The notes under the pieces: model-generated | Seen by the model: only the letters and a program-made list of their open reading frames with translations | Told to the model about the DNA's origin: nothing | The model's database searches: none | Part shown: in pieces, positions 6,849 to 33,409 of the stretch | Layout of the letters: each line of letters starts with the position of its first letter | Position numbering within the stretch: position 1 is the stretch's first letter | From: Actinomycetes bacterium | GTDB taxonomy: Bacteria; Actinomycetota; Acidimicrobiia; Acidimicrobiales; Palsa-688 | Assembly: GCA_021809885.1 (NCBI GenBank) | Contig: JAJZJY010000004.1 | Location: 1-33,501 of the forward strand | Length of the DNA: 33,501 nt | Direction: 5' to 3' | Position numbers and translations under genes: made by a program

Positions 6849-6869
6849 TCCCGGCAGGGCCGAGGACGG

Positions 6870-9223: not shown

Positions 9224-9241
9224 GGCCGGCCAGCGACATGG

Positions 9242-9271: not shown

Positions 9272-9391
9272 CGGCAGTGCCCGAGCCCGGCGGAGCCGGT
9301 GCCCGGTGAGGACATGGCGACAGGGGCGGTTCGCCGACACGGACCGCGACATGAGACGACGGTCGGCCACGACCGGAGCGCAGGAGGAACC

Positions 9392-10309: not shown

Positions 10310-10337
10310 GCGGCCGCGTCGGTCGGGGGGCATACTG

Positions 10338-10937: not shown

Positions 10938-10983
10938 GGTGCGGCCCGCAGCAATTGGTTGCCTAGGCTTCGTACCGGGGGCG

Positions 10984-13541: not shown

Positions 13542-13567
13542 GCGTGCGCCCGTCACCGGCCAGGCCG

Positions 13568-14659: not shown

Positions 14660-14725
14660 GCGCCGCGGCCTGCGACGGCAGCGCCGGGCTTCTGGGACAG
14701 CATCTGAATTTCGCTCTCGAGGCTG

Positions 14726-14763
14726 AGCAAGCGCTTGCTTTCCGGCGAAGCCTGCGATAGACT
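14726..14763 (+). promoter_or_regulatory. tetR promoter with palindromic operator
   Basis: AGCAAGCGCTTGCT (14726-14739) overlapping -35 TTGCTT (14735-14740), 17-nt spacer, -10 TAGACT (14758-14763); tetR GTG at 14800 with gggGAGGtgg. Confidence 0.75.
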
Positions 14764-14799
14764 ACCTAAAGTTGCTGTACTCATTGGGGAGGTGGTGAA

Positions 14800-15423
14800 G
14801 TGAACGCGCTGGCGACAGCAGACGAGGGAGCCGCTCCTGGCATCATGGTTAGAGCTGCCCTCGAGGCGTTCGCCAAGCACGGGTATAACGGAACGACCAC
14901 GCGGCAGATTGCGAAGATGATCGATCGGAGTTCGGCTGTCATCTACAGCCGGTTTCCGTCGAAGCGGGCTCTTTTGTACGAGATCATCGCCTCGTCGCAC
15001 GAATCCCTGAAGGCGGACCTCGACGAGGCGGTACGTCAGGCCACGGACACCGTCGACTGCGTTCGTCGGCTGACCATGGCACACGTCAAGTTTCATGCGC
15101 AACACTGCCTCGCGGCCCGCGTCGCCAATTACGAGCTCTACAACCTCGCTCCCAACGAGCTCCAGTCGATCCTGCAGATGCGTCACTGGATGGAGGCGCT
15201 GATGCGCGAGACGATCATGAAGGGTACGGAAGAAGGCCTGCTGCACGTATCAGATCCGGCGCTCGCCAGCAGCGCGGTCATGTCGATGGGTATCGACGTC
15301 TCGCGGTGGTACCGCGAGGGACGGCGGCTGACCCCCGAGGGGCTCAGCCAGCGATATGCGGAGTACGTGCTCGCGATGCTCGGAGCGAAGACCGAACGAG
15401 TAACGGTGCCACCTCGTAGGTAG
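14800..15423 (+). CDS. TetR-family transcriptional regulator
   Basis: N-terminal HTH AALEAFAKHGYNGTTTRQIAKMIDRSSAVIYSRFPSKRALLYEII; C-terminal SRWYREGRRLTPEGLSQRYAEYVLAMLGA. Confidence 0.92.
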   Translation: MNALATADEGAAPGIMVRAALEAFAKHGYNGTTTRQIAKMIDRSSAVIYSRFPSKRALLYEIIASSHESLKADLDEAVRQATDTVDCVRRLTMAHVKFHAQHCLAARVANYELYNLAPNELQSILQMRHWMEALMRETIMKGTEEGLLHVSDPALASSAVMSMGIDVSRWYREGRRLTPEGLSQRYAEYVLAMLGAKTERVTVPPRR

Positions 15424-15563
15424 GACGGGCGTCGCCGCGTCTTCGCTCGTACGTTACTGCCAGGTTCGCCAGTATCCATCTAACGAATATCAGACCCGGA
15501 CCGGAGGCCCGGAGAATCAGGTATGGCCGGCTGCATCGTGCCTACCTAGAGGAGGGTGAGAAG

Positions 15564-16697
15564 GTGTCAACAGAAGGCATGATGTCAGAAGCACGATACG
15601 ATGGAATATCATCGCGGCGTCCAGGCAAGGTGCGGAAATACCGAGTCCTGACAGGGGTCCTCGCTGTGGGGATGGCATTGGCGGCGTGCGGGACGACAGC
15701 CGCGAAAAGTGCCACTGCGAAGACGTCAAGTGGGGGCGCGTCCCAGCCGGTGACGACCCTCCACGTGCAGACGTACGGGCCGGCCCTGATCGATCTACCG
15801 CTGGCAGTTGGCATCACGACAGGCATTTACGCGGCACACCACCTGAACGTGATTCCCACCCCGGTGAACACAGGTCCGCTAGGGATCACGGCAGTAAGCG
15901 CGGGGAGCATTCAGCTCGCGTGGGACCCGACCGACCTGGTGGAGGAGGCCGTCTCCAAGGGGTCGACCCTGCAGATCGTGGCAGCAGGGATGAAGAACAT
16001 CTACCAGCTCGTCATCGCTAAGAGCGTTAAACTCAAGGTTCCACTCAGCGCGGGCTACCCGGCGGTCATGAAGGACCTGGTCGGCTTGAAGGTCGGCGTC
16101 ACCAACCTGGGTGCCGACACGCAGCTCGAGGTAGAAGCCCTCCTTCAGGATGCCGGCCTGAGCCCGAACAGCGTCACCTACGACCCGGTCGGACTCATCG
16201 GGACCGCGTACCCTGCAATGCAGGCGAATCAGATTCAGGCCTATCTGGCATGGGAGCCCATGGTGTCACTCTGCCAAGTGCAGAACGTGTGCTCCGTAGT
16301 GCTGGACTTGGGCGCGGGGCAGGGGCCGTCGCAGATCACCTCCTTCAACGGCGCCTTCGAGTGCTACGTCGGCGACACCAGCTACATCGACTCGCACAAG
16401 CAGGCCATGAATGACTTCGTCGCCGCCGACAAGGCAGTGATCCAATGGATGCAGGACCCGAAGAACTTTCCAAAGCTCGTGAACATCACCCTCAACGCCG
16501 TCTCGGTCGGGTCGGTGTCGAACAAGAAGCAGTTTGTGACAACGATGCTCAAGAAGAACCTCAATGACTTTTCGTACACGGTGAACCCGGCATCGGTGAA
16601 GGCGTTCGACCACTACTTGGTGTCGACGAAGCTGATCTCCGCACCGGTCAACACCAAGAGCATCATCTACTCGGGGGCACCGAAGCCCGGGTCGTGA
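15564..16697 (+). CDS. NitT/TauT-type ABC substrate-binding lipoprotein
   Basis: Lipobox LAAC after a hydrophobic segment; HVQTYGPALIDLPLAVGITTGIYAAHHLNV... NMT1/TauA-like layout. Confidence 0.87.
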   Translation: MSTEGMMSEARYDGISSRRPGKVRKYRVLTGVLAVGMALAACGTTAAKSATAKTSSGGASQPVTTLHVQTYGPALIDLPLAVGITTGIYAAHHLNVIPTPVNTGPLGITAVSAGSIQLAWDPTDLVEEAVSKGSTLQIVAAGMKNIYQLVIAKSVKLKVPLSAGYPAVMKDLVGLKVGVTNLGADTQLEVEALLQDAGLSPNSVTYDPVGLIGTAYPAMQANQIQAYLAWEPMVSLCQVQNVCSVVLDLGAGQGPSQITSFNGAFECYVGDTSYIDSHKQAMNDFVAADKAVIQWMQDPKNFPKLVNITLNAVSVGSVSNKKQFVTTMLKKNLNDFSYTVNPASVKAFDHYLVSTKLISAPVNTKSIIYSGAPKPGS

Positions 16698-16858
16698 CCG
16701 TCGTCACGGTGGAGCACTTCCGGGTGATCCTCCCGAACTAGAGGTGCTGGGCCGCAGCGGCGGTGGATCGCCACCACCGAGGACGCGCGGTTCGGAGCCC
16801 CCAGATCCGAGCGGGCTCCAGCAATCCCCCGCAGACTCGAGGAGAGGACGGCACCACG

Positions 16859-17620
16859 ATGCAAGACGAGCTGGCAGTGGTGGTGGGGGGCGCCAATGGC
16901 ATCGGAGCGGCGATCGCTGAGAGGTTGGTGGCGGACCGCTCCTGCGGGCGTCTGGTCGTCGCTGACATCGACATGCCTGGTGTTCGGCGCCAGGCGGATT
17001 CGCTTCACGGGCGTGGCGTGGAGGTGGCCGAACATCAGGTGGACGTGTGCGACCAGGGGTCGGTGGACGGGCTGGTCGCCGACACGGCCGACGCCTCGTG
17101 GCTCGTGGTGGCATCGGGGATCTTTGGCACAGACGACGCGTTGTCGGTCACGAGGGACGCGTTCCGGCGGGCGATGGCCGTCAACGGCGAAGGCGTCTTC
17201 TTCGTGGTCCAGGCGTATGCCAGGGAGATGGCAGCACGTGGCCGGGGATCCGTCGTGGCCGTGGCTTCGGTGGCAGCACGAGTGCCTCGGGTCCGCCAGG
17301 TGGCATACGGGGCATCCAAGGCTGCGCTGCGTCAGGCACTTCGCGTCTTGGCGCTCGAGGTGGCGGGATCCGGTGTGCGGATCAACACGGTGTCGCCCGG
17401 ACTGACGGCGACGAGGATGATGGACCAGATGTCGGCGGATGCCGCTGCCGTTAGCAACTTCGCCTGCGGCGACCTGTCCACGTTCCGGCCGCGCATCCCT
17501 CGAGGCACAGTGGCCCTGCCGCAGGACGTGGCGGCCGTGGTTGCGTTCCTGTTGCGCGACGCCGCACACATGACGATCCAGGATCTGGTAGTCGACGGCG
17601 GGGAGCTCCTCGGGATGTGA
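16859..17620 (+). CDS. SDR, 2,3-dihydro-2,3-dihydroxybenzoate dehydrogenase (EntA/DhbA)-like
   Basis: VVVGGANGIG, VASVAARVPRVRQVAYGASKAALRQALRVLALEVAGSGVRINTVSPG, C-terminal MTIQDLVVDGGELLGM; RBS gaggagagg. Confidence 0.85.
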   Translation: MQDELAVVVGGANGIGAAIAERLVADRSCGRLVVADIDMPGVRRQADSLHGRGVEVAEHQVDVCDQGSVDGLVADTADASWLVVASGIFGTDDALSVTRDAFRRAMAVNGEGVFFVVQAYAREMAARGRGSVVAVASVAARVPRVRQVAYGASKAALRQALRVLALEVAGSGVRINTVSPGLTATRMMDQMSADAAAVSNFACGDLSTFRPRIPRGTVALPQDVAAVVAFLLRDAAHMTIQDLVVDGGELLGM

Positions 17621-17673
17621 CCTGTTTCTGAGTTCCGGTCAGGAGGTTGGACGTTGGAGCCCTCCCCGGCCAG

Positions 17674-17834
17674 CCAGGTCAGAGGCTATTTGTGGCTTCA
17701 CCAGCTTCCGGGCGTGCCAGACGTGTGCCAGACTGGTCGGCGGTGGCGGTTCGGATCCTCTCGTTAAGCCCGGCGGTGAGCGCGTCGTCGAGCGCTGGGA
17801 ACAGGTGGCCGTAGCGATCCAGAGTGACGGTGAT
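17674..17834. repeat. 161-bp direct repeat of 203-363
   Basis: Ungapped alignment at offset 17471 with 7 mismatches, all in the first ~52 bp; last 109 bp identical. Confidence 0.95.
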
Positions 17835-18914
17835 GCTCGAATGCCCGAGGCGCTCCATGACGGCCTTCGGGTGACCGCCTTCGGCGATGAGCAAGCTGGC
17901 ACAGGCATGTCTCAGGTCATGCCACCTGGTGCCCGGTACTCCGGCCCTGGCAGCAGCAGGACGGAAGTGGCGGCGGTAGACCGCCAGGTGGCGTACAAGC
18001 TCCCCGGTCTGTCCGACGAACAACCAGGCAGCGGGGTCTTCGGGCCGGGTCGCAAGCTGGGCGGCGAGGGGCTCGCGCAGCTCGTCCGGCAGCGGCACCC
18101 GCCGACTCATCCCGGTCTTCGGCGGGGTCACCACGAGCTTGCCTCTCACCTCGGTCACCGACTCGGTGACGAGCAGCGCAGGTCCGGCCAGGTCAACCGA
18201 CCGCCGGCGGAGCGCCCACAGCTCGCCGGCCCGAGGCCCGCCGTAGGCAGCCAGGCGCACAGCCAGCGCCAGGTCGGGGCGGTGGCTTGGTGCAGCCGCC
18301 CGCGCACCGTGTCCGGCTGGCCTGTACACCGGGTGCTCGATCTCGTGTGCCAGGGCCTCGACCTGTGCGACGGTGAGCACGGTGAGCGCCCGCTTGGGCT
18401 GGCGTGGCAGACGGACACGGGTTGTGGGATCGGCACCCAGTGCCCCCTCCTCTATGGCCAGTCGACAGATGGCACGGAGCGGCTCGAGTGCTCGGCGTAA
18501 CACGTCGGGCTGGGCACCCGCCGCCACCAACTCTGCCACCCACGTCTCCACGTCGCGGCGGGCGATCGCCGCCAACTCGACGGTGCCCCACCTGGGCAGT
18601 GTCCTTGCGCGAAGCATCTGCTCGTTGCCGGCCCGTGTTGACGGCTTCCAGTGGACGGAGCGGTCCAGCCAGCGCTGAGCCCACTCAGCCACCGTCCCGG
18701 CGGAGTCGAGCTGGCGTTGTCCGCGCAACTCGTCGGCCTCGGCCAGTACCAGCGCGTGCTCAGCGTCAGCCTTGGTGCGGTATGACCCGAGCGACACCAT
18801 CGTCCCGTCGGCCTCGGTCCGTCGTGCCTGCCACCGGCCAGAGGGCAGGCGTCGGACTGTGCCGGCTCCCGACCGGCGATGGCGGCGCTGCCCATCCGTA
18901 CTATCCTGTGCCAC
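17679..18914 (-). CDS. Tyrosine site-specific recombinase (phage/ICE-type integrase)
   Basis: Catalytic GGPRAGELWALR, HDLRHACASLLI, LGHSSITVTLDRYGH; N-terminal arm-binding GTVRRLPSGRWQARRTEADGTMVSLGSYRTKADAEHAL. Confidence 0.93.
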   Translation of the reverse strand: MAQDSTDGQRRHRRSGAGTVRRLPSGRWQARRTEADGTMVSLGSYRTKADAEHALVLAEADELRGQRQLDSAGTVAEWAQRWLDRSVHWKPSTRAGNEQMLRARTLPRWGTVELAAIARRDVETWVAELVAAGAQPDVLRRALEPLRAICRLAIEEGALGADPTTRVRLPRQPKRALTVLTVAQVEALAHEIEHPVYRPAGHGARAAAPSHRPDLALAVRLAAYGGPRAGELWALRRRSVDLAGPALLVTESVTEVRGKLVVTPPKTGMSRRVPLPDELREPLAAQLATRPEDPAAWLFVGQTGELVRHLAVYRRHFRPAAARAGVPGTRWHDLRHACASLLIAEGGHPKAVMERLGHSSITVTLDRYGHLFPALDDALTAGLNERIRTATADQSGTRLARPEAGEATNSL

Positions 18915-18948
18915 GAGGTTGTCTCCCCAGCTCGACCTCGAACCGATG

Positions 18949-19364: not shown

Positions 19365-19396
19365 TGTTGACATCCCACATTCCGGTGCTAACATCC
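19365..19396 (+). promoter_or_regulatory. iclR promoter with 21-bp-spaced direct repeats
   Basis: TGTTGACATCC (19365-19375) and TGCTAACATCC (19386-19396) contain -35 TTGACA (19367-19372) and -10 TAACAT (19389-19394), 16-nt spacer; GTG start at 19402. Confidence 0.7.
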
Positions 19397-19401
19397 ATGA
19401 T

Positions 19402-20265
19402 GTGGACAGATCGAGTGCCTCCGACCCGCAGAAGCTGGCCGGGGTTATGGTTGATTCCGGCCACGACGCTGCGCGCCAGGGGCCCGGGTTCGGGCTTGTA
19501 GGTACCGACGGACCTTCGAAGGTGCAGGTTCTCGCCAAGTTCCGACAGCTACTCGACGCTTTCTGCCCCAAACAGCCCGTCTTGACCCTCAGCGAACTGC
19601 GATCCAGTACGGGCTTGCCCGCCAGCACCTGTTTCCGACTGGTCCACAACCTCGTGGACGAAGGCTTGCTTGAGCGGGTCGGGGACCGTTATCGGGTCGG
19701 GCCAGCTGCGATCCGCTGGGCTGCATCCGCGATCGAAGCTCGTAGCATCATCAACGAGGCAGCATCTGCACTTGAGGAGCTTCGGGTGTTCACGGGGGAG
19801 AGTGCCCACCTCGTGGTGCGCGACGGTGCCTTCCGGATCTGTATTGCGCTCGCCAACAGCCACCGCTCGGTGGTGCGCCTGCTGCGCATCGGTGAGGTTG
19901 TCCCGCTCCATGTAGGCTCGATGGGAAAGGTCTTCCTGGCATTTGACTCTGAAGCGCTCCCCGCGCTCATGGGCAGCCCGCTCGACGCCTTCACGAGCCA
20001 CACCACCACGGATTGGGAAGAGCTGGACCGCGAGGTGGCAGACATCCGCGCCAAGGGCTACGCTGTCAGCTTCGGTGAACGCGACGCAGACGCGGTGGGC
20101 ATCACTGCACCCGTGTACGACCACCAAGCACAAATGGTCGCGGGCGTGGGGATCTCGGGGCCGATCCAACGCATAGGCAAGCAGCAGGCCGAAGAATACG
20201 CCGCGGCCGTCGTTAACGTGGCTCAAGAGATCTCGACGGCCCTCGGATGCCAGCTCTATGTATGA
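19402..20265 (+). CDS. IclR-family transcriptional regulator
   Basis: wHTH LTLSELRSSTGLPASTCFRLVHNLVDEGLLERVGDRYRVG; IclR effector domain (VVPLHVGSMGKVFLAF, GYAVSFGERDADAVGITAPVYD). Confidence 0.92.
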   Translation: MDRSSASDPQKLAGVMVDSGHDAARQGPGFGLVGTDGPSKVQVLAKFRQLLDAFCPKQPVLTLSELRSSTGLPASTCFRLVHNLVDEGLLERVGDRYRVGPAAIRWAASAIEARSIINEAASALEELRVFTGESAHLVVRDGAFRICIALANSHRSVVRLLRIGEVVPLHVGSMGKVFLAFDSEALPALMGSPLDAFTSHTTTDWEELDREVADIRAKGYAVSFGERDADAVGITAPVYDHQAQMVAGVGISGPIQRIGKQQAEEYAAAVVNVAQEISTALGCQLYV

Positions 20266-20340
20266 GCGCAACGCAACGCGATTGAGGACAGCGGGGTGGG
20301 CACCGACTGCGAGCGACACTGCAGGAGCCAGTCACCGGCT

Positions 20341-20372
20341 TCCTCTTTCGGTAAACCAGTAAACCAAGAGGA
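20341..20372 (+). promoter_or_regulatory. Inverted repeat enclosing tandem GTAAACCA, upstream of the SBP gene
   Basis: TCCTCTT (20341-20347) / AAGAGGA (20366-20372) flank GTAAACCAGTAAACCA (20351-20366), 28 nt before ATG 20401. Confidence 0.5.
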
Positions 20373-20400
20373 CACAAGTAGAAACAGGGAGGATCAACAC

Positions 20401-21630
20401 ATGTCCCACATGCGCCATAGCTTCAAGAGAGAGGGTGCCGAATTCGAATTGCCTCGGTTCAGGTCCCGGTTCATCAACCTGGTGGCGGTGCTCGCTGCTG
20501 GTTCGATCCTGTTGACCGCATGTGCCTCGTCCTCGAATTCGGCGACCAGCACGAAGAAGAAGCAAGCAGCCGTCACCCCGAGCAGCGGTGCATCCAACTT
20601 CACCTTCAGCTCCGGAGTCGCTTCGCCTGCCGTAGCCAGCCTCGTGAAGAGCCTCTGCCCCACCCACGCGGTGAAGGTCGGGTTCGTAGGCGGACCGGTC
20701 AACCCCTGGAGCCTGAAGGTCCAGTCCAATATCCAGGACGTGCTCAACCTCTGCCCGAACGTGACAACCTATCTTCACACGAACGCGAGTTCCCTGGCAC
20801 AGGCAACGTCAGAGGTCAACGGCTATGTCACCCAGGGCGTCAACATTTTGATTGTCCAGCCGGAATTCGGCCCCGCGCAGCTCACCTCGTACGCCGCGGC
20901 GGTCAAGGCCGGTGTCACGGTCGTGCCCGAGCTCACCACGGGGAACGGAAAAGTCGGAGTGGACTTCCAGACCTACGCAGCGGAGAACTACACTCAGTCC
21001 GGCACGGCATGGGCTGACTTCTTCCACCGTGCCGTGAAATCGGGGAAGATCGTGTTCTTGGGCGGGGCGCCCGGCACTGCCTCAAGTACCGACTTCCTCA
21101 ACGGCCTGGCTACCGCACTGAAGGCATACCCGGGTCTCTCCCTCGTTCAGAGCACCCCGGTGTGGACGAATTGGACGACGAGCGGTGCCCAACAGGCCAT
21201 GTCGGGGTTGTTGGCGAAAGATGGCCGGATCGCCGGAGTTGCCTCTGACTACGGCCTGGTCATGACCGGCGTCGTCAACGCATATAAGCAAGCAGGGATG
21301 GCTCAGCCCGACATCGCAACGATCGCAAGTGCCGAGGCGAACGCCTGTCAGTTCGCCACGACACACTTCGGCTTCTACACCCTGGGAGCCTCGACCCTGT
21401 TCGGTGTGGTCGCGTTGCTGAAGGCATTCCAACTTGAGCGGCACCAGTCGTCACCCCCGGCGAACGTGCCGCTTCCTGGTGTCGTCGACACATCGAGTGG
21501 CCAGGGCATGCCGGCCTGTCAGTCGGGCGTCTCGACCGATGAACCGCTGACTGCCGTGCTGTCGAACGCCCGGCAAGCGACTGCCGAAGAGGCAATGCTC
21601 AAGTCCGCGGGCTTCACGCTCTCGAGCTAG
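20401..21630 (+). CDS. Sugar-type (ribose/autoinducer class) ABC substrate-binding lipoprotein
   Basis: Lipobox LTAC; VKVGFVGGPVNPWSLKVQSNIQDVL..., NGYVTQGVNILIVQPEFGPAQLTSYAAAVKAGVTVVPE; ATG preceded by gggagga. Confidence 0.87.
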   Translation: MSHMRHSFKREGAEFELPRFRSRFINLVAVLAAGSILLTACASSSNSATSTKKKQAAVTPSSGASNFTFSSGVASPAVASLVKSLCPTHAVKVGFVGGPVNPWSLKVQSNIQDVLNLCPNVTTYLHTNASSLAQATSEVNGYVTQGVNILIVQPEFGPAQLTSYAAAVKAGVTVVPELTTGNGKVGVDFQTYAAENYTQSGTAWADFFHRAVKSGKIVFLGGAPGTASSTDFLNGLATALKAYPGLSLVQSTPVWTNWTTSGAQQAMSGLLAKDGRIAGVASDYGLVMTGVVNAYKQAGMAQPDIATIASAEANACQFATTHFGFYTLGASTLFGVVALLKAFQLERHQSSPPANVPLPGVVDTSSGQGMPACQSGVSTDEPLTAVLSNARQATAEEAMLKSAGFTLSS

Positions 21631-21708
21631 GCATCGTCTCAAGGCGACTTTTACAGCATGTGATGGCTCATTGTCAGGAAGGCAACGGTTTGAAGGGAGA
21701 CGTCTGCT

Positions 21709-23763
21709 GTGCCATTCTTCGTTGGTGTTGACATCGGGGGTACGTTCACCGACGTTTGGGCCATTCGCGATACGGGAGCAACTGCTATTGCAAAGACCTC
21801 GTCCACGCCACCGCGCTTTGAAGAGGGATTCTTGAACGGCATCGGTGAACTCGCCACGAAGTTCGACACCACGGTCGAGGCCCTGCTGGCTGATACCGTA
21901 CTCCTCGCTCACGGCACGACGGTTGCGACAAACATCATGGTTCAGCGTGAAGGAGCGAAGGTCGGGCTCATCGTGACGAAGGGCCATCGGGACGCATTGA
22001 CCATGATGCGTGCAACCGGGCGGACGGCGGGACTGAGCCCAGAGCTCCTCGCGGACACGAAGGCGACCAACAAGCCCAGTCCAATCGTCGATCCCAGTAC
22101 AATTGTGGAGATCGACGAGCGGATCGACGTCGACGGTGATGTGGTGGTGCCACTGGCCGAGACGCAGGTGAAGGAGGCTATCGAGTTCTTCTCGGCCAAG
22201 GGTATAGAGAGCATCGGGATCTCGTTCCTTTGGTCCTTTGCAAACCCAGCACACGAACACACCGTTGAGGCGATGGTCAGGCGGGCGTTGCCAACGACGT
22301 TCGTGTCGTCCTCGACAAACCTGTCGCCGCAAATCGGGGAGTACGAACGCACCGCGGCCGTCGCCATCAATTGTTACGTCGGGCCCGAGACGGCCACGTA
22401 TCTCACACGTCTCCAGCGACAACTGCGCGAACTGGGCTATCAGCGACCACTGTACTTAACCCATTGCTCTGGCGGCGTGATGGAAGTGGACGAAGCAGTC
22501 CGATCACCGATCAAGCTGTTTCAGTCTGGTCCCGTGTCCGGCATCAACGCGTCTGTGAAGGTACCAGGCATCGGTGACCAGATCATCGCGGCCGACATGG
22601 GGGGAACATCGTTCGATGTGGGGTTGGTCGTCGACGGACGCCCGTTATCCCGCAAGAGCACCATCGTCGATCACTACGAGTATCAACTGGCGACCGTTGA
22701 CATCCAGTCGATCGGCTCCGGCGGGGGAAGCGTCGCGTGGTTCGATGAGGAGCAAGGCGCGCTGCGTGTGGGGCCGCACAGCGCTGGCGCACGCCCTGGG
22801 CCCGCGGCCTACGGCCGCGGCGGCACGAAGCCGACCGTCACGGATGCGGACCTCCTCCTGGGCTACCTTAATCCCACGTATTTCCTCGGCGGCGCGATGG
22901 GACTCGACGTGGATGCCTCCGAACAAGCAATGGCAGGACTGGCTAACAAGATGGGGCTATCCGTCACGGAAACGGCAGCGGGTGTGGGTGAGATCGTGGA
23001 CAAGCAGATGGGCGACCTGGTCCGGCGCCTGACGCTCGGAAAGGGATTTGACCCCCGAGACTTCGTGCTCGTGGCGTACGGCGGTGCCGGACCTGTCCAC
23101 GCCGCCGGGTTCGCGCAAGATATCGGTGTTCGCGAGGTCGTGATCCCCGGGACGGACGCCTCGTCGGTTTGGTCGGCATTCGGTGCAGCGACCAGCGACC
23201 TCGTCCACGTCGTTGAGCAGGGGTGCTACTTCACAGCACCGTTTCAGACATCCCAGATCGGGCAGGTCATCGCCGGTATCCGGGACCATATTGACCAACG
23301 CCTGGGTAGAGACAACTACAGCGTCACCTGGACGGCGGACATGCACTACACGACCCAGATCAGCGAGCTCGAGGTTACGCTGCCGGACCTCAGTGGCAGG
23401 TCGTTCGGCGAGGAGGCTGTGGACAGGTTCCAAGATCTATATGAACGGACCTACGGCAGGGGCGCTGGCTTCAGCGAGGTCGCCGTGGAGATCACTGCGA
23501 TCCGCGCCCGGGCACAGCAGTCGCTCGGGCAACCAGGAACCGCGTCGGATCAAGTGGACCGGTCGGGTGTGAAGGGCCGTCGAAAGGTCTACTGGCCCGC
23601 GTTACACGATTACGCCGAGACGCCCATATTCAGCTCAATAAAAGAACGCGCCGAAGGCCCACTGGTTGTCGAGCTCCCGGATACTTCGATTGTTGTTCAT
23701 CCAGGCCAAGCTATTCATGCCGATTGCTCGGGCAACCTGGTTCTGACGCTCAGAGAGGGCTAA
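21709..23763 (+). CDS. hyuA: Hydantoinase/oxoprolinase-family protein, HyuA-like (ASKHA ATPase)
   Basis: VGVDIGGTFTDVWAI, AHGTTVATNIMVQREGAKVGLIVTKGHRD, CSGGVMEVDEA, DMGGTSFDVGL, YGGAGPVHA. Confidence 0.92.
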   Translation: MPFFVGVDIGGTFTDVWAIRDTGATAIAKTSSTPPRFEEGFLNGIGELATKFDTTVEALLADTVLLAHGTTVATNIMVQREGAKVGLIVTKGHRDALTMMRATGRTAGLSPELLADTKATNKPSPIVDPSTIVEIDERIDVDGDVVVPLAETQVKEAIEFFSAKGIESIGISFLWSFANPAHEHTVEAMVRRALPTTFVSSSTNLSPQIGEYERTAAVAINCYVGPETATYLTRLQRQLRELGYQRPLYLTHCSGGVMEVDEAVRSPIKLFQSGPVSGINASVKVPGIGDQIIAADMGGTSFDVGLVVDGRPLSRKSTIVDHYEYQLATVDIQSIGSGGGSVAWFDEEQGALRVGPHSAGARPGPAAYGRGGTKPTVTDADLLLGYLNPTYFLGGAMGLDVDASEQAMAGLANKMGLSVTETAAGVGEIVDKQMGDLVRRLTLGKGFDPRDFVLVAYGGAGPVHAAGFAQDIGVREVVIPGTDASSVWSAFGAATSDLVHVVEQGCYFTAPFQTSQIGQVIAGIRDHIDQRLGRDNYSVTWTADMHYTTQISELEVTLPDLSGRSFGEEAVDRFQDLYERTYGRGAGFSEVAVEITAIRARAQQSLGQPGTASDQVDRSGVKGRRKVYWPALHDYAETPIFSSIKERAEGPLVVELPDTSIVVHPGQAIHADCSGNLVLTLREG

Positions 23764-23767
23764 ACAC

Positions 23768-26050
23768 ATGCAGCAGGCGATTCCAATGGACGGCAGGCAA
23801 CGTGGCTACGTGCCCCCGGAAAAGCTCACGATAAGCTCGAAATTGGTGCTTCACGAAGAGGCCGTGTCCCTCGACGGGCTGAACCCCATCGATTTTGAGA
23901 TCATTCGCTATCAGCTCTGGTCGATCAACCAAGAACACGGGGAGACCATCTCCAAGATCTCGGGCTCGCCGATAACCAAGTACACCATGGACTTCAATCC
24001 TACCCTTCTGACTGAGGATGCGGAGAACGTCTACTTTGGACCGTATGTGCAGTGGTTTTCCGGCATGGCCGATAATGTTGTTAAATGGATCATGGAGAAC
24101 CGCAGCGAGAACCCGGGCATTAATGATGGCGACATGTTTCTCAGCAACGATCCATGGGTCGGGACAACGCACCAGCAGGATGTCGGGCTCTTCTGCCCCG
24201 TTTTCGTTGAGGGAAAGTTGTTCGCCTGGGTTACGAACGTCCTCCACCAGTACGACGTGGGCGGGATAGCGGCAGGGAGCTTCGTTCCGCAAGCGCGCAA
24301 CGTGTTCGACGAGGCGGTTCCGATTCCTCCGATCAAGATCGTGGATAGGGACGGCATACGACAAGACGTGGAAGAGGCATACCTGCGGCACTCGCGACTG
24401 CCAGGGCTTGTGAAGCTTGATCTGCATGCGGGCATCGCCGGCAATGCGACCGCCCGTGACCGGTTGCTCCAGCTGGTCGGGCGGTATGGCGCGGCGAAGG
24501 TGAAAGGGGTGATGCGGAAGGTCCTGGCGAACGGCGAGCAAGCCCTGCTTCGTAAGCTGGAAAAGATACCGGACGGGGTCTGGCGTGACCGGGTGTACCT
24601 CGATGTGGCGGTGGAGGGCGACCGTGGTCTCTATGGCGTCCAGCTGAACCTGCGGAAAACGGGAGACACGCTGACATTCGACAACGAGGGGACGGAGCCG
24701 CAAGTCGGGGTACTTGGCGCGTCATTTGCTGCTTGGCGAGGCGGAATCCTGACCGTGTTGAACGCGTTCCTGGCGTACGACCAACTCTGGTCGCTCGGGG
24801 GCGCGAGCCGACACGTGAAGTTCCACCCGACACCAGGGTTGATCAGCTGCGCGGACTATCCCGCTGCCATGAGCTGTGGCGGGACGATTGGCGCATACCA
24901 TGCCATCGTCCTGGCCAACAACTGCCTGGCGCGCATGATGGCGAGCTCGGGCGACGAGGAGCTGCAGCGTGATGTGATGGCCAATGAGGCGAACAGCATG
25001 TGGCCTATCACGCAGTTGTCTGGCACGGACCGAAAGGGTGAACCGTTCGGATCGGCGATCCTCGACCCGATGATTGGTGGCCTGGGTGCTTTCAGCTTTC
25101 GGGACGGGATCGATACGGGCGGAATGTACCTCGTGCCAAAGGGTCGAGCGGCCAACGTGGAGCAGAATGAGCTTCATTTCCCGGTGCTCTACCTGTACCG
25201 GAAGGAGCTGTGCGACTCGGGAGGCCCCGGCCGCTTCCGGGGAGGCAACGGCGGAGAATTGGCATTTGTCCCCCACAAGACGGAGCGGTTAAACCAGGAC
25301 ACCGCGACGTCGGGAGCAGCGGTGCCGACGGGAATGGGCCTCTTTGGCGGCAATCCGGGCTGTACGAACGAGTACGTGATGGTGTTCGGGAGCGACGTAC
25401 GCGCTCGGATGGCTGCGGGCGAGATCCCCACGGCTTGGCAGACGCTGGAGGGGACGGTGGAGGCCCTGCCGCCGAAGAAGGCGGGCATCGACCAGGGGCA
25501 GGACGACGTGTACGTCATGCATTGGTCGGCTGGAGCAGGGTTCGGTGATCCGCTCAAGCGAGAGCCCGGTGCGGTGGCCAGAGATATCAGGCAGGGTACT
25601 GTGAGCAGGGAGGCGGCTCGGAGGCAGTACGGCGTAGTGTTCGATGAAGCCACCGGTGAGGTGGATGTTGCGGCCACCCAGGCGGAACGGGAGAGAAGGA
25701 CGAGCGAGCGCCTGGACGGAGGCGCGCGAGTGGCTCAGGGCGGGTCGACCTGTGGCAGGCGGGTGCACGAGGCGCTTGCGCTAAGCTGTGATGGAAAGTC
25801 ATGGCTGTGCGGGTACTGCGGCTGCACTCTGGGTGGCGCGTCCTCGGGATACAAGGAGCAGGTCGTGCGGGTGACCCATCCGGTGTCGGACGCGAACGAG
25901 CTGATCGGGGATCCAAGCCGATTCGTGGACGTCGGGATCGTGTGGGTCGAATATTGCTGTCCGAATTGCGGTGTACGCGTGGAGTCCGAGCTCCTGCGGG
26001 AAGGCGACACTCCCCTGGTGGATATCGAATTGCTCGACTATCAAGCGTAG
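23768..26050 (+). CDS. hyuB: Hydantoinase B-family protein, HyuB-like, with C-terminal Cys-rich extension
   Basis: LNPIDFEIIRYQLWSINQEHGETI, DMFLSNDPWVGTTHQQDVGLFCPVF, GPGRFRGGNGGELAF; C-terminal CGYCGCTLGG...EYCCPNCGVRVESELL. Confidence 0.9.
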   Translation: MQQAIPMDGRQRGYVPPEKLTISSKLVLHEEAVSLDGLNPIDFEIIRYQLWSINQEHGETISKISGSPITKYTMDFNPTLLTEDAENVYFGPYVQWFSGMADNVVKWIMENRSENPGINDGDMFLSNDPWVGTTHQQDVGLFCPVFVEGKLFAWVTNVLHQYDVGGIAAGSFVPQARNVFDEAVPIPPIKIVDRDGIRQDVEEAYLRHSRLPGLVKLDLHAGIAGNATARDRLLQLVGRYGAAKVKGVMRKVLANGEQALLRKLEKIPDGVWRDRVYLDVAVEGDRGLYGVQLNLRKTGDTLTFDNEGTEPQVGVLGASFAAWRGGILTVLNAFLAYDQLWSLGGASRHVKFHPTPGLISCADYPAAMSCGGTIGAYHAIVLANNCLARMMASSGDEELQRDVMANEANSMWPITQLSGTDRKGEPFGSAILDPMIGGLGAFSFRDGIDTGGMYLVPKGRAANVEQNELHFPVLYLYRKELCDSGGPGRFRGGNGGELAFVPHKTERLNQDTATSGAAVPTGMGLFGGNPGCTNEYVMVFGSDVRARMAAGEIPTAWQTLEGTVEALPPKKAGIDQGQDDVYVMHWSAGAGFGDPLKREPGAVARDIRQGTVSREAARRQYGVVFDEATGEVDVAATQAERERRTSERLDGGARVAQGGSTCGRRVHEALALSCDGKSWLCGYCGCTLGGASSGYKEQVVRVTHPVSDANELIGDPSRFVDVGIVWVEYCCPNCGVRVESELLREGDTPLVDIELLDYQA

Positions 26051-26260
26051 AGGGAGATCGGTTTCCGGGAGAAGAGTTCTCCATCGCTGTGCTGTAGACT
26101 ACCCTCCTCCGCTAGATACGGCAGCGGGACCTGAGAACGAGCCCCACGTGGCCCGACATGTAGTGGTGACAACGCGCCAGCAGCATCCAGATGGAGATCC
26201 CCTAGGAGCATTGGGTTGTGATCAGCAGGACGAGAACCGTGTTGATGCGAGCCCCGGACT

Positions 26261-28921
26261 GTGCTCGAGACGCTCGAGACGATGGTGCTGAGGGTAGGGA
26301 GTCGATTGTCTAGATCGCCACGAGAGATGCAGGTTGCTAGTCCGACTGCAGCAGCGTCGGTTTCAGGTGGGTCCACTGCCGCGGTGTCGGTGCGAGCCGT
26401 GATGAAACACTATGGGGCCATACGCGCTCTCGATGATGTCAGCATCGAGCTGCAGTTCGGAGAGGTCCACGGCATCATTGGGGAAAACGGTGCTGGCAAG
26501 TCGACGTTGGTGGGAGCGATCAGTGGCAGCGTGGCGTGTGATAGCGGTTCCATCGTCGTGCTGGGGAAGGAGGTCGGGCGAGCGGGGGTCGGGCGCATTC
26601 AGGCGCGCGGAGTCAGGATCCTCCACCAGAACCCGGCGATCGAGCCCGACCTGACCGTCGCCGAGAACATCGCCCTGTGGCATCGGGGGCATGGGGGCAG
26701 GATCTGGCGTGGTACCAACGAGATCGCGTCGGAAACGCTGGCTATCTGGAGTGAGGATGTGGCGAGGCAGATCTCCCCAGAGTTGCGCGGATGGGCACTG
26801 TCCCAGTCGCAGCGAACGATCGTGGCGCTGTGCAGCGCCCTCGCCGCCAAGCCACGCGTGCTGATTCTAGACGAGCCGACCGAGCACCTCCGTGGCGCTG
26901 ACGTCGAGCGACTCTTCGACCTTCTCGGAGCACTGCGGGCTGAGGGAGTGGCGATCGCCTACATCAGCCATCGGCTGAAGGACGTGACGAGGATCGCCGA
27001 TCGCGTCACCGTATTGCGGGCCGGCAGGAGCGTCGGAACCTTTGTCGAAAAGCTGAGTGATAGTGAGATGGTTGCGCTCATCACGGGGGAACGCCGAAGC
27101 GTGGAAGGCGCTGCAGGTGACTCGGACCGTCTCCGCGCCAGCAGACTTCTTTCCGCAGATCAAGAGGGGGTGGTCCTGAGGAACGTCCGCTTCGGCGATG
27201 GCATGGTGGGCGAGATCCGGCTGGGGCGGGGGCTGATCGTCGGGGTCACCGGAATGGCTGGCGCGGGACAGGAGGAGATCCTTCGCCAGCTTGCCGGTCT
27301 GGGGAAGAAGAACGCCCACGCATGCAGAATCGACCTCGGTGGGAAAGCCGGGATCGTTGACACCGCGAGGAAGGCCCGCCGAGCCGGTGTGCACCTCGTA
27401 AGCGGCGACCGAATGATGGAGGGCGTCTTTCCCGGGCTGACCGTGAGGGAGAACGGCACGATGCGGGCGCTCTCGCAATTGAGCCGTGGGCCACTGATCC
27501 CGCCGCGGGCAGAGGCTGGGTTCGTAACGCAATTGGTCGAGAAGTTCGATGTCCGTCCACGAGACATTGAGTTGGAGATTGAGTCGCTCTCAGGCGGGAA
27601 TGCACAGAAGGTACTGCTCGGGTCGGCCTTCGACGCCATGTGCACGGTCTTGTTGCTGGAAGAACCAGTCCAAGGGCTGGACGTGATCACGCGTGAGCAC
27701 ATCTTTGCGATGCTTAGGAGCAAAGCGGAAGAAGGCGGCGTCACGGTGGTGATCTCAACGACTGATGCAAGCGACCTCGTGGGCGTGGCCGACAAGGTCT
27801 TGGTCGTGTCGCGAGGTGAGGTCTTGACCGTCCTGGAGGGTGACGCCATCTCGGAGGGTGGGATCACCGAAGCCATCGTGATGGCGAGCAATGCGGGCGG
27901 GGAGCAGAATGCGTCGCAGCACGGGGGTCGCGGGTGGCGGTGGTGGCAGCGGGTCGTCAGGTCGGGGGGTGACGGGCAGGTGGCGCCGGCTGCGCTCCTG
28001 GCTGTCGTCATCGTCTTCATCGCGGCCGCGGGCCAGGGCACGCAGAGCTTGTTCCTGTCCGGGAGGAACGTCACGAGCATGCTCCAGGTGCTGCTCCCGT
28101 ATGCATTTGCCGCGTTCGGAGAGGTGGTCGTGCTGCTCCAGGGCGGCTTCGACCTTTCGATCGGCCCACTGATGGGCTTGGACCTGGTGATTGCCTCCTA
28201 CTTCTTCACGTCGCCAATCGACGCCTCGCACGTCTTCATCGGGGCCGTCGTCCTGGTGGGAGCGAGCGTGGGGGTTGCCGTCGTGAATTGGGCGCTCATC
28301 GAGTTCGCCAAGCTCGAATCCATGATCGCGACGCTGGTGACTTTCGTCGCCCTCGAGGGCCTGGGATTGGTGTTGAGGCCCGTGCCGGGGGGCCAGGTCG
28401 CGTCATCCATCGCGAATGTGCTGACCAGCACGGCCGGGGATGTGCCCGTGCTGGCAATCGTCGCGGGACTCCTTGCGGTGATCGGCTCGCTCATCGTAAG
28501 CAAGGCGCTCCGAGGCCGCGAGCTCCGGGCACTTGGCTCTGACCGACGTGCGGCGTCGCTGATGGGCATCAGCTCCCGGAAGCTGCGGCTCGGGGCCTAT
28601 CTGGTGTCATCGGCATTCGGTCTGTTGGGTGGCGTTGCCCTGATGGGGCAAGTCGCCTACGGCGATCCGACTGTTGGAGTTGTGTACACGTTGGGCGGGC
28701 TCAGTGCGGGCGTGATCGGCGGTGTGAGCATTAGCGGTGGCATTGGCGGTCTGGTTGGCCCGCTCCTCGGGGCACTGTTGCTCGCGGAGGCACTTTCTTT
28801 GGGCGCATTCGTCCAAGCTGGTGGTTGGCTGCCGTACGTGCTCTCGGGCGGGGTGACGATCGTCGGCGTGCTTGGCTATTCGGTGCTCAGGAAAGTGGTA
28901 CGAAGTCGTTATGCGACGTGA
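26261..28921 (+). CDS. Fused sugar-type ABC transporter: duplicated RbsA-like NBDs plus RbsC-like permease domain
   Basis: NBD1 GENGAGKST and VLILDEPTEHL; NBD2 LSGGNAQKVLL and LLLEEPVQGLD; then membrane domain FGEVVVLLQGGFDLSIGPLMGLD in the same frame. True start uncertain (26261, 26282 or 26327). Confidence 0.88.
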   Translation: MLETLETMVLRVGSRLSRSPREMQVASPTAAASVSGGSTAAVSVRAVMKHYGAIRALDDVSIELQFGEVHGIIGENGAGKSTLVGAISGSVACDSGSIVVLGKEVGRAGVGRIQARGVRILHQNPAIEPDLTVAENIALWHRGHGGRIWRGTNEIASETLAIWSEDVARQISPELRGWALSQSQRTIVALCSALAAKPRVLILDEPTEHLRGADVERLFDLLGALRAEGVAIAYISHRLKDVTRIADRVTVLRAGRSVGTFVEKLSDSEMVALITGERRSVEGAAGDSDRLRASRLLSADQEGVVLRNVRFGDGMVGEIRLGRGLIVGVTGMAGAGQEEILRQLAGLGKKNAHACRIDLGGKAGIVDTARKARRAGVHLVSGDRMMEGVFPGLTVRENGTMRALSQLSRGPLIPPRAEAGFVTQLVEKFDVRPRDIELEIESLSGGNAQKVLLGSAFDAMCTVLLLEEPVQGLDVITREHIFAMLRSKAEEGGVTVVISTTDASDLVGVADKVLVVSRGEVLTVLEGDAISEGGITEAIVMASNAGGEQNASQHGGRGWRWWQRVVRSGGDGQVAPAALLAVVIVFIAAAGQGTQSLFLSGRNVTSMLQVLLPYAFAAFGEVVVLLQGGFDLSIGPLMGLDLVIASYFFTSPIDASHVFIGAVVLVGASVGVAVVNWALIEFAKLESMIATLVTFVALEGLGLVLRPVPGGQVASSIANVLTSTAGDVPVLAIVAGLLAVIGSLIVSKALRGRELRALGSDRRAASLMGISSRKLRLGAYLVSSAFGLLGGVALMGQVAYGDPTVGVVYTLGGLSAGVIGGVSISGGIGGLVGPLLGALLLAEALSLGAFVQAGGWLPYVLSGGVTIVGVLGYSVLRKVVRSRYAT

Positions 28922-30026
28922 CGGAAGCACCATTCGGCCGCACGGCGTGCCCGCCGCACCAAGCCGGAAGGCGATGAGCGGGATGGTGGGTCGCCTGCTC
29001 CGCTGGCAACCGGCTTACTCGACCGCGGTCATCGTGGCGGGGGTCTTCTTGCTCAGTTGGGCGGTGGACGGGCGGTCGGTCAGCCTCATCGCCCTCCGGA
29101 GCATGCTGCCGGCAGCGGGCATTTTGGCAATTGCGGGGGTAGGCGAGACGCTGGTCGTCCAACAGCGGGGAGTCGACCTCTCGGTGCCGGGAGTGATTGC
29201 GCTGACCGCTTACGTGGTATCGGACCTACCGATCCGATACGGCATCTCACCCGCGCTGGCATTTCTGGTAACCATCGTCCTGGGTCTGGTGGTCGGGCTC
29301 GTCAGTGGCATGATCATCACGAAGGTCGGAGTTAGCCCAATTGTCGTGACGTTCGGCATGAACTCGCTGTTGGTGGGGCTTGTGATCTGGTACTCCGGGA
29401 CCCAACCAGTGACGACGTGGGCGGGCTTGCAAGCATTCGCCACCGGGCGTTGGTTGGGTGTGTCGTTCCTCACCTGGATCGGGCTATGCGTCGTCGTCGT
29501 TGCCGCACTCGTAGAGAGCTTCACAAAGTGGGGTAGGCGGTTTGCTGCAGTTGGTGCCTCTCCGGGAGCAGCGCGAATTGCAGGATTGGCAGTAGGCCGC
29601 TACGTGACTATGGCCTACGTCATTGCCGCGGGATGCTACTCCCTTGCCGGGATCCTGCTGGTGGGCTTCGTGCAGACGAGTTCGACGTCGCTGGGAGATC
29701 CCTATCTCTTGTCGGTATTTGTCGTCGTCATCATCGGTGGAACGCGGCTGCGCGGGGGTAAAGCCACGATGATGGGCACTGGACTCGCTGCCCTCGCGTT
29801 GGCTCAGATCGATCAAGCGGTGCTGACCTTGGGCGCGACCGGCGCAGTGCAGGACCTCGTCGAGGCGACGGTGCTGGTGCTGGCCGCGCTCATGGGGGTC
29901 GCGAATGTTCCGCAGCTGTGGACCCGGGCAAAGAGACTCCTCGGTGGCCCGCCCGGCCGCAGGGCATCGAAGCATGGAGGTGACGAGGCAACGGTAGTGG
30001 CGCCTGTGGGGAGTGAGCGGCTCTAG
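28911..30026 (+). CDS. Sugar-type (RbsC-like) ABC transporter permease
   Basis: GETLVVQQRGVDLSVPGVIALTAYV, AVGASPGAARIAGLAVGRYVTMAYVIAAGCYSLAGILLVG, IIGGTRLRGGKATMMGTGLAAL; overlaps upstream stop. Confidence 0.9.
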   Translation: MRRDGSTIRPHGVPAAPSRKAMSGMVGRLLRWQPAYSTAVIVAGVFLLSWAVDGRSVSLIALRSMLPAAGILAIAGVGETLVVQQRGVDLSVPGVIALTAYVVSDLPIRYGISPALAFLVTIVLGLVVGLVSGMIITKVGVSPIVVTFGMNSLLVGLVIWYSGTQPVTTWAGLQAFATGRWLGVSFLTWIGLCVVVVAALVESFTKWGRRFAAVGASPGAARIAGLAVGRYVTMAYVIAAGCYSLAGILLVGFVQTSSTSLGDPYLLSVFVVVIIGGTRLRGGKATMMGTGLAALALAQIDQAVLTLGATGAVQDLVEATVLVLAALMGVANVPQLWTRAKRLLGGPPGRRASKHGGDEATVVAPVGSERL

Positions 30027-30250
30027 CCGCCGATGTGGGATCCCCTAAGCTCCGGGATGTGCACCGGCGCGGGCATAACGTGAGAGCGGAGAAGAGCCTC
30101 TGTGCGCTCTGAGGGCGGTTTGGCCCAGCCGGTAAACCCAGGAGTCGCACGTGGGGCCCAACGGTCGCAGGATGCGGACGGGCTTCGCGAAATCGGGCGG
30201 CGTGGGCCGAATGGGATGTGGCCGATGGATGAGAATGGAAAGGTGAGGAT

Positions 30251-31546
30251 GTGATGGGTGTGACGAATTCGAGACTCGAGCGCTTTTACGACATGAACCC
30301 CCGGGAACGACTCGACGTGCTAGCCGAGCGGCTCGGCCTGTCCGCCGAGGAGCTCGGCGAATTGCAGGCAGGGGGTGCCTTGCCGCTGGAGACGGCGGAC
30401 CGCATGATCGAGAACGTCGTCGGCGTGTTCCCGCTACCGTTCGGCATCGCGTCCAACTTCGTCATCAACGGGAAGCAGTACCTGATCCCCATGGTGGTGG
30501 AAGAACCGTCGATCGTTGCGGCCGCCAGCTTCATGGCCAAGATTGCTCGGGATCACGGTGGGTTCGCGACGTCATCGACTGGGCCCGTCATGGCGGCGCA
30601 GATCCACGTCACCGGGGTGAGCGACGTGCACGGGGCTCGCCTGGCGGTGCTGGCGGAGAAGGCATCATTGCTTCGCGAAGCGAACACGTACGACCAGACG
30701 TTAGTGTCCCTGGGCGGAGGTGCTCAGGACGTGCTGGTCCGGCTGGTGTCCGACTCGGCACTGGGCGAAATCCTCGTGATCCACTTGGCGGTGGACGTGC
30801 GCGACGCGATGGGCGCGAACACCGTCAACACCATGGCAGAGCGGCTGGCGCCACGGATCGAGGCGATCACAGGTGGGCACGTGGCGCTCAGGATCCTGAC
30901 CAACCTCGCCGACTTGCGGCTGGCTCGGGCCAAGGTGGTTGTGCCGTGCGAAGCGCTGAGCACGAACGAGTACTCAGGTGATGCGGTGGCCGAGAGCATT
31001 GTGGCGGCATACAGGATCGCGGACTGCGATCCATACCGGGCGACCACCCACAACAAGGGGATCATGAACGGGATCGATCCGGTCGTCGTGGCGACGGGCA
31101 ACGACTGGCGCGCCATCGAAGCAGGTGCGCATGCGTACGCGGCGCGCACGGGGCGCTATCGATCGCTCACCACCTGGGAGCGCAACGCGGCGGGGGACCT
31201 CGTCGGAACGCTGGAGCTCCCCATGGCCATCGGTATCGTGGGCGGTGCGACGAAGACTCATCCGCTGGCTCAGCTGTCGCTGAAGATCATGGGAGTGTCG
31301 ACCGCCTCCGAGGTCGCGGAGATCGCCGCAGCCGTGGGTTTGGCGCAGAACATGGCAGCGTTGAGGGTTCTGTCCACGGAGGGTGTCCAGCGAGGACACA
31401 TGGAGCTGCACGCGCGGAACATCGTGGTGCAGGCGGGGTTGGTTGGCGACGTTGCGGAGGCGGTCCTCGCCCAGATGGTGAGAGAGCGTGACGTGCGTGT
31501 CGACCGGGCAGTGGAGATCGCAAAGGACCTGGGGTCTGATGCGTGA
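30251..31546 (+). CDS. mvaA: Hydroxymethylglutaryl-CoA reductase, class II/degradative type
   Basis: [100 protein letters not shown]. Confidence 0.95.
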
Positions 31547-31615
31547 GGCGCAGGCGATGGAGCAGTCGCGTCGCGCGCCGGCCATTGAGCCGCCAGCGCG
31601 AACGGAGGAGAGGTA

Positions 31616-33409
31616 ATGGCAGCGAGGAAGGTCGTGATCGCCAACGCAGGGGGTTTCTGGGGTGACGACCCAGGGGTTGGAAAGCGCCAGGTCGAGGGTG
31701 GCCCCATTGACTACTTGGTGATGGACTACCTGGCGGAGGTCACGATGGCGATTTTGCAGAAACAACGCCAGCGGAAGCCGGAAGGAGGATTTGCCGACGA
31801 TTTCCTCGTGCAGCTGAGGAAGGTGCTGCCGTCCTGCATGGAGCGGGGCATAAAGATCGTGACCAACGCCGGCGGGGTTAACCCGATGGCCTGCCGAGCT
31901 GCGGTCGAGGAGTTGGCCAGGCAGCAAGGGGTGGCCGATCAGCTGAATGTCGGGGTGATCATGGGTGACGACATCTATGGTGACCTGGACGCGATCTTGG
32001 AAGGCGGGGAGACGCTTGCCAATATGGACACGGGTGGACCGCTGTGCGACATCCGTAATCGTGTGCTGAGTGCCAACGTTTACGTGGGGGCAGCGCCGGT
32101 GGCCAAGGCCCTGGAGATGGGCGCGAATGTTGTCATTGCCGGTCGTGTGACGGACACGGCGCTCACGCTAGGGCCCATGATGCATGAGTTCGGCTGGAGA
32201 GAGGACGAGTGGGACCGCCTGGCTGCGGGGATCGTCGCGGGTCACATCATCGAGTGTGGCGCTCAGGCCAGCGGTGGCAACTTCACGGATTGGCGCTCCG
32301 TTCCGAGCTTCGCGAACCTTGGCTATCCGCTCATCGAGGCGTACCCGGATGGCACGTTCGTGGTGACGAAGCATCCTGGTACGGGCGGGGTCGTCAACAC
32401 GCATACGGTTGGGGAGCAACTGCTCTACGAGATGGGGACGCCAAGTTACGTAGCCCCGGATTGTGTTGCGCATTTCGATTCGCTTGTTCTGGAACAGGAG
32501 GGCCCTGATCGCGTCCGGGTGAGCGCGGTGCGGGGAGACCCAGCACCGGAGAAACTGAAGGTGTCGGTCAGCTTCGCTCACGGGTACCGGATCTTTGGCC
32601 GGATCCTGGTCTCAGGTCCGGAAAGCCTCGCGAAGGCGGAGAAGGTCGTCGAGATCTTCTGGAACATGGTTGGGGGGCGGGATCTGTATGAGGAGGCGGT
32701 GACGCAGTTCATCGGATGGAACGCCTCCCATCCGCCGCTGAGCGAACATGAGCCGAGCGAGGTGCTTGTTCAGGTTGGCGCCAGGGATTCCGACAAGGAG
32801 AAGCTCGATACGCGGTTCGGACCGTTCGTCGTAGCGGGCCTTCTCGGGTCCGTTCCCGGCATCACTCCTGCGGCCGATCAGGGGCGGCCGCGCGCGTCGG
32901 ACGTGGTCGGGTACTGGCCTGCACTTATCTCACGGGACCGGGTAAGGATTAGCGTGCGCGTTGGAGACACTGAGGAACCGGTCTCGTCGGCGGCACCGTC
33001 GGAGACAGTGAGCGCGGCGTTCACGCCTGTGCGTCTTGAGTCAGTGGTGCCATCGGCGGGACGCCAGGTGACCGTTCCGCTCGGTCGGCTCTGCCTGGCA
33101 CGGTCGGGAGACAAGGGGAACACGGCGAATGTGGGGGTCATTGCTCGGACGATCGGCGTGTACGGCTGGATGGTGGAGAACCTGACGACGGACTTCGTGA
33201 AGCACTATTTTCGCGAGCTGTGCGAGGGGACCGTCGAGCGGTACGAGCTGCCAAACCTCCTCAGTGTGAACTTCCTCCTGCACGAAGCGCTCGGAGGGGG
33301 TGGGACGCTGTCCGTGCGTTTCGACGCCCAGGGGAAGACCTACGCGCAGTTTCTGCTCGCAGCACACGTGACGGTCGATGAGCAGATCCTCAAAGGAGTC
33401 GAAGCGTGA
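31616..33409 (+). CDS. atuA: AtuA-family (DUF1446, acyclic terpene utilization) protein
   Basis: VVIANAGGFWGDDPGV, KIVTNAGGVNPMACRAAVEELA, NVVIAGRVTDTALTLGPMMHEFGW, GNFTDW; C-terminal LCLARSGDKGNTANVGVIAR. Confidence 0.88.
   Translation: MAARKVVIANAGGFWGDDPGVGKRQVEGGPIDYLVMDYLAEVTMAILQKQRQRKPEGGFADDFLVQLRKVLPSCMERGIKIVTNAGGVNPMACRAAVEELARQQGVADQLNVGVIMGDDIYGDLDAILEGGETLANMDTGGPLCDIRNRVLSANVYVGAAPVAKALEMGANVVIAGRVTDTALTLGPMMHEFGWREDEWDRLAAGIVAGHIIECGAQASGGNFTDWRSVPSFANLGYPLIEAYPDGTFVVTKHPGTGGVVNTHTVGEQLLYEMGTPSYVAPDCVAHFDSLVLEQEGPDRVRVSAVRGDPAPEKLKVSVSFAHGYRIFGRILVSGPESLAKAEKVVEIFWNMVGGRDLYEEAVTQFIGWNASHPPLSEHEPSEVLVQVGARDSDKEKLDTRFGPFVVAGLLGSVPGITPAADQGRPRASDVVGYWPALISRDRVRISVRVGDTEEPVSSAAPSETVSAAFTPVRLESVVPSAGRQVTVPLGRLCLARSGDKGNTANVGVIARTIGVYGWMVENLTTDFVKHYFRELCEGTVERYELPNLLSVNFLLHEALGGGGTLSVRFDAQGKTYAQFLLAAHVTVDEQILKGVEA

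Follow-up and report, generated by a model that had tools for sequence, protein, structure and literature searches.

The systems closest to the locus treated here are the mvaAB genes of Pseudomonas mevalonii, the acyclic terpene utilization (Atu) pathway and the acetone and acetophenone carboxylases (Acx and Apc). In the acyclic terpene pathway, a lyase function has been proposed, tentatively, for a homologue of AtuA (PMC4847356, PMC12016498). Acx and Apc contain a gamma subunit that is absent from plain hydantoinases (PMC5214803). We analysed a 33501-base stretch of DNA from an actinobacterial genome of the order Acidimicrobiales (hereafter the window), which is the complete contig C165 of a fragmented assembly (894 contigs, 80.7% complete). 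Its right part carries eight genes on the + strand (19402-33409) that combine a sugar-type ATP-binding cassette (ABC) importer, a HyuAB pair, a degradative 3-hydroxy-3-methylglutaryl-CoA (HMG-CoA) reductase (HMGR) and AtuA. The gene set is real and unusual, a variation on mevalonate-catabolic modules. Our tentative reading is that the block arrived by horizontal transfer and serves the breakdown of mevalonate or of a mevalonate-yielding compound.

An IclR-headed gene block with its own importer

In profile searches, all eight genes matched the families listed here far above curated cut-offs. This bears out the gene identities, order, strand and IclR-headed arrangement with a dedicated importer that had been given in a preliminary description of the window.

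19402-20265, +, IclR-family regulator (PF01614 124 bits, HTH_IclR 37 bits)
20296-21630 (open frame; better start ATG 20401), +, sugar-type lipoprotein substrate-binding protein (SBP; Peripla_BP_4 PF13407 75 bits; lipobox LTAC)
21709-23763, +, HyuA-type ATPase (kinase) subunit (PF01968 266 bits; motifs DIGGTFTD, DMGGT, GARPGP)
23768-26050, +, HyuB-type subunit to which an acetone-carboxylase gamma domain is fused (PF02538 323 bits, PF08882 28 bits)
26261-28921, +, sugar-type ABC ATPase, duplicated and fused with a permease (ABC_tran in two stretches, BPD_transp_2; AraG/XylG-like)
28872-30026, +, second permease (BPD_transp_2 83 bits)
30251-31546 (ATG 30254 likely), +, class II degradative HMGR (TIGR00532 427.5 bits)
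31616-33409, +, AtuA ending in a ferredoxin-like domain and a candidate HMG-CoA:acetate lyase (PF07287 471 bits, cut-off 22.8; PF23544 87 bits)

The importer fits the sugar-type (ribose/arabinose-like) ABC class, having a Peripla_BP_4 SBP, two ATPase domains on a single chain and BPD_transp_2 permeases, and the distant PDB relatives of the SBP are sugar-binding proteins. Intergenic gaps of ~210 bases before the fused ATPase-permease and ~225 bases before HMGR weaken the case for a single transcript of all eight genes. Only 92 bases separate the end of AtuA from the end of the contig.

A predicted route from mevalonate through HMG-CoA

The assignment of the reductase to the degradative class II type, which had been taken earlier to point to mevalonate oxidation, is supported by its score against the degradative equivalog family TIGR00532 (427.5 bits versus a cut-off of 259.95) and by the catalytic residues E85, K269, D285 and H383, all of which are present by motif and alignment. 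The protein matches PDB entries 1qax (P. mevalonii) and 6dio with E values of about 1e-163. It is a genuine degradative enzyme of the P. mevalonii type, and it likely makes HMG-CoA. The closest sequences found are proteobacterial (~62% identical). HMGR is the single such gene in the host genome; it was absent from the relatives set (60 genomes besides the host) and from 394 other genomes of the class, and only three other genomes of the phylum sample (396 genomes) gave a strong match.

AtuA belongs to its family by both its PF07287 domain (471 bits) and its ferredoxin-like domain (87 bits). Both homologue substrates are of the 3-hydroxyglutaryl-CoA type with a tertiary hydroxyl group, and the same is true of HMG-CoA. 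This likeness, together with the position of the gene directly behind HMGR, makes AtuA a candidate HMG-CoA:acetate lyase. That it would split HMG-CoA into acetoacetyl-CoA and acetate is an argument from analogy, and we regard it as possible rather than probable. The activating role envisaged for AtuA in the preliminary description is better replaced by that of a C–C lyase acting after HMGR; the family assignment stands.

In the proposed scheme, the SBP, the fused ATPase-permease and the second permease would import a mevalonate-type substrate under IclR control. We judge it an even question whether this sugar-type importer takes up mevalonate or a precursor. HMGR would then oxidize mevalonate with NAD+ and CoA to HMG-CoA, a step well supported by its family, and AtuA may split HMG-CoA on the free-carboxylate side to yield acetoacetyl-CoA and acetate. 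If AtuA indeed has this activity, bacteria possess a second HMG-CoA-breaking route, and what AtuA does in terpene degradation becomes much clearer by analogy. The position of AtuA directly behind HMGR offers a simple test substrate, HMG-CoA, for a widespread family without a settled activity. A literature search, with subscription journals mostly outside its reach, returned no paper connecting AtuA with HMG-CoA and none on degradative HMGR or bacterial mevalonate catabolism.

AtuA is present in 128 of 296 sampled genomes of the class, and a search of viral contigs gave no match. The host genome itself encodes a second AtuA on contig C21 (48% identical over the matched part), near acyl-CoA carboxylase genes. 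An AtuA gene adjoins a phosphate acyltransferase gene both in Rhodococcus gordoniae (L197:1172-3989) and in g179, a genus within the window's class (L097:7955-10359). An AlphaFold model of AtuA built from two sequences reached a pLDDT of 38 and was discarded.

Neighbourhoods of HMGR and AtuA in other genomes

No second copy of the full gene set was found in a search that covered 80 loci with HMGR relatives, 395 genomes of the class and 396 of the phylum. In the fetched stretches of the 80 loci, HMG-CoA lyase (HMGL) occurred in 21, a Rhodococcus-type CoA transferase in five, AtuA in one and HyuAB in none. Conservation of these genes together, whose absence the preliminary description had itself named as a ground for refuting its reading, is not supported for either HyuAB (0/80) or AtuA (1/80).

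The one locus with AtuA, from a Sporomusaceae genome (L084:6610-11266), is tightly packed: genes for the large and swivel parts of aconitase X are followed by AtuA, split into two frames, and HMGR, and a major facilitator superfamily transporter lies upstream. The frame of the second AtuA domain runs to 10004 and so overlaps by 4 nt the HMGR gene, which begins at 10001. No HMGL match was found in the 21 kb of this locus, and its gene set possibly serves the use of anhydromevalonate or mevalonate. In favour of the mevalonate reading, HMGR keeps company with a transporter, and often with HMGL, in other bacteria too. The carriers are of the TRAP or tripartite kind in Paroceanicella, Ruegeria, Sulfitobacter and Lichenicola, and an actinobacterium-like genome (G483) holds HMGR, HMGL and TctA together. 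Rhodococcus pseudokoreensis combines HyuAB, CoA transferase, enoyl-CoA hydratase, HMGR and HMGL in one cluster, and in genome G259 AtuA adjoins an acetophenone-carboxylase-like set. Each enzyme pair of the block (HMGR-HyuAB, HMGR-AtuA and AtuA-HyuAB) therefore recurs in other genomes, and the whole set is seen only here. Five further loci (L015, L052, L054, L019 and L021) carry a degradative HMGR near a CoA transferase, three of them with an enoyl-CoA hydratase as well; these proteins are 53-63% identical to their counterparts in the Rhodococcus HyuAB-HMGR cluster.

The window contains no HMGL gene, so the mvaAB-type adjacency of lyase and reductase is missing. Its absence had been noted before, with the suggestion that the gene might lie just past the right edge; an HMGL gene is in fact located on contig C471 (2315-3202; 393 bits versus a cut-off of 246), flanked by genes for biotin carboxylase and acyl-CoA dehydrogenase, and replacement by AtuA is the alternative. 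A gene with a mycothiol-type domain in the same genome, and an HMGL that is 71% identical to a Rhodococcus protein in a phylum relative, make Actinomycetota the probable phylum. The strong lyase on C471, together with the frequent linkage of HMGR to HMGL (21/80), agrees with a classical mevalonate module in which HMGR makes HMG-CoA, the HMGL of this leucine-type cluster finishes the pathway and AtuA acts on another 3-hydroxy-3-alkylglutaryl-CoA. This would leave unexplained why AtuA adjoins HMGR both here and in the Sporomusaceae locus, and we consider it unlikely, if a serious contender. Under cleavage by AtuA, the HMGL on C471 could serve as a back-up.

Several observations weigh against a mevalonate module in which AtuA breaks HMG-CoA. 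A true HMGL in the genome means that AtuA need not do so. One AtuA among 80 HMGR loci is about what chance would give, AtuA being common. The closest AtuA relatives (67 and 62% identical, genus g179) lie beside neither HMGR nor HyuAB; no SBP is next to them either, and the neighbours of the 67% copy are a phosphate acyltransferase and a TetR regulator. The importer is of the sugar type, whereas carboxylate carriers are usual beside such HMGR genes. HyuAB is left unexplained by the mevalonate scheme. As to the homologues, the ThnQS result rests in part on unpublished data, and a review (PMC4097962) gives the isohexenylglutaryl-CoA lyase step to LiuE and not to AtuA.

HyuAB and its fused gamma domain

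The ATP motifs of HyuA and the metal motifs of HyuB are those common to the carboxylase/hydrolase superfamily (motif set from PMC8453981). HyuB has the metal residues D75, H135, D138 and H160, two Cys pairs (CGYC and CPNC) in its C-terminal part, and matches to the delta and beta chains of PDB 5l9w. Residues 675-755 form an Acetone_carb_G domain (PF08882, 27.7 bits versus a cut-off of 21; PDB 5l9w_C, E 1.5e-4). The nearest plasmid-borne HyuB proteins are haloarchaeal (up to 46% identical) and have a separate acetone carboxylase gamma gene adjoining. From the gamma domain in HyuB and the gamma genes beside its nearest relatives, we read HyuAB as an ATP-dependent enzyme of the ketone-carboxylase type, which its sequence makes fairly likely. 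The earlier placement among hydantoinases, oxoprolinases or carboxylases is narrowed accordingly to ketone-carboxylase-like, with the family retained; a plain hydantoinase was dropped because of the gamma domain. The scores fall far below the NCBIfam equivalog cut-offs for Apc (ApcC 356 versus 1500, ApcD 215 versus 1500) and caprolactamase (CapA 464 versus 1000, CapB 152 versus 1000), which makes HyuAB a relative of both and a member of neither. A separate Apc-like set, with two HyuA, HyuB and its own gamma match, lies beside ABC transporter genes on host contig C285 (L143).

How HyuAB connects with the other genes of the block is conjectural: its ketone substrate might come from the same source, or the enzyme might salvage acetone that escapes from acetoacetate. 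Relatives of HyuAB-gamma occur near acetoacetate decarboxylase, near CoA ligases, or near a 2,3-butanediol dehydrogenase accompanied by subunits of alpha-ketoacid dehydrogenase. These neighbours, and the position of AtuA in G259 next to a set like that of acetophenone carboxylase, would suit a pathway for ketones or terpenoid fragments, with carboxylation of an imported ketone by HyuAB-gamma, cleavage of a branched intermediate by AtuA and HMGR on a side branch only. The block has no CoA ligase or transferase for such a route, and to our knowledge HMGR is highly specific in the known cases, which also counts against it; we hold this pathway to be improbable. Far less credible still is a scheme drawn from chemical plausibility, in which HyuAB-gamma would, in a biotin-free reaction, attach CO2 at the methyl carbon of a C5 isoprenoid aldehyde such as prenal, and the hydrated C6 product, mevaldate, would pass with CoA through HMGR to HMG-CoA and on to AtuA; no hydratase was identified for it. 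If true, C5 isoprenoids would reach HMG-CoA by a path that needs no biotin.

Signs of acquisition

Four features in the left part of the window point to integrative elements.

129-205, +, complete tRNA-Val(TAC) (ARAGORN)
203-363, 161 bp repeating the integrase 3' end, directly after tRNA-Val (direct repeat of 17674-17834, 95.7%)
17628-17676, +, 3' fragment of tRNA-Gln, likely an attachment-site remnant (86% identity over 49 bases with the 3' portion of tRNA-Gln(TTG) in two family relatives)
17679-18923 (start estimated; open frame to 19649), -, tyrosine integrase (Phage_integrase PF00589 E 4e-17; translation)

The tRNA-Val with its integrase 3' remnant, and the tRNA-Gln fragment with an apparently intact integrase, represent two related tRNA-targeting integrative elements on one contig. 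GC content is 62.9% in the block, 66.5% in the window's left part and 65.6-72.3% in five further contigs of the host. In tetranucleotide pattern, the block correlates less well with other host contigs (0.55-0.62) than does the left half (r 0.72-0.76). Neither HMGR nor HyuB was found in three congeneric, incomplete genomes, where the SBP gave only short, weak matches. The integrase and tRNA-Gln fragment at the left, the low GC, the less host-like tetranucleotides and the absence of HMGR in relatives together support, but do not prove, a horizontally acquired island, the far border of which is not seen on the contig. This is simpler than a misbinned contig, to which we leave a residual probability.

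The same integrase, tRNA fragments, repeat and atypical composition could also reflect a loose collection of unrelated catabolic genes assembled by integrative elements, with no single pathway; the lack of conservation of the set and the two wide gaps agree with this. Eight co-directional genes with their own regulator and importer, and the recurrence of each enzyme pair in other genomes, speak for a functional unit, and a loose collection appears improbable to us.

Between the two tRNA-associated features, positions 441-17620 hold a second catabolic cluster. It comprises a taurine/nitrate-type ABC importer, a ketosteroid-dehydrogenase-like flavoprotein, an acyl-CoA ligase, an amidohydrolase, an acyl-CoA dehydrogenase, short-chain dehydrogenases/reductases (SDRs), a TetR regulator and an NMT1-type SBP.

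Comparison with known systems

Like the mvaAB system of P. mevalonii, the block links a degradative class II HMGR to a transporter; it differs by the presence of AtuA and HyuAB-gamma, by the sugar-type ABC importer and by the lack of an adjoining HMGL. With the Atu pathway it shares an AtuA that would act, as tentatively assigned, on a 3-hydroxy-3-alkylglutaryl-CoA. Unlike that pathway, it includes HMGR and has no geranyl-CoA carboxylase in the window: neither a biotin carboxylase nor a carboxyltransferase domain was found among the window genes scanned. In its HyuA and HyuB subunits, the ATP motifs and metal site that they carry and the gamma domain, the block matches the Acx and Apc carboxylases; the fusion of gamma to HyuB, and scores that fall far short of the Apc equivalog cut-offs, set it apart. 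The plasmid cluster of R. pseudokoreensis (L091) likewise unites HyuA, HyuB with two C-terminal Cys pairs and a degradative HMGR. It differs in having HMGL, CoA transferase and enoyl-CoA hydratase in place alongside them and no AtuA, and its HyuA and HyuB are 34 and 28% identical to those of the block.

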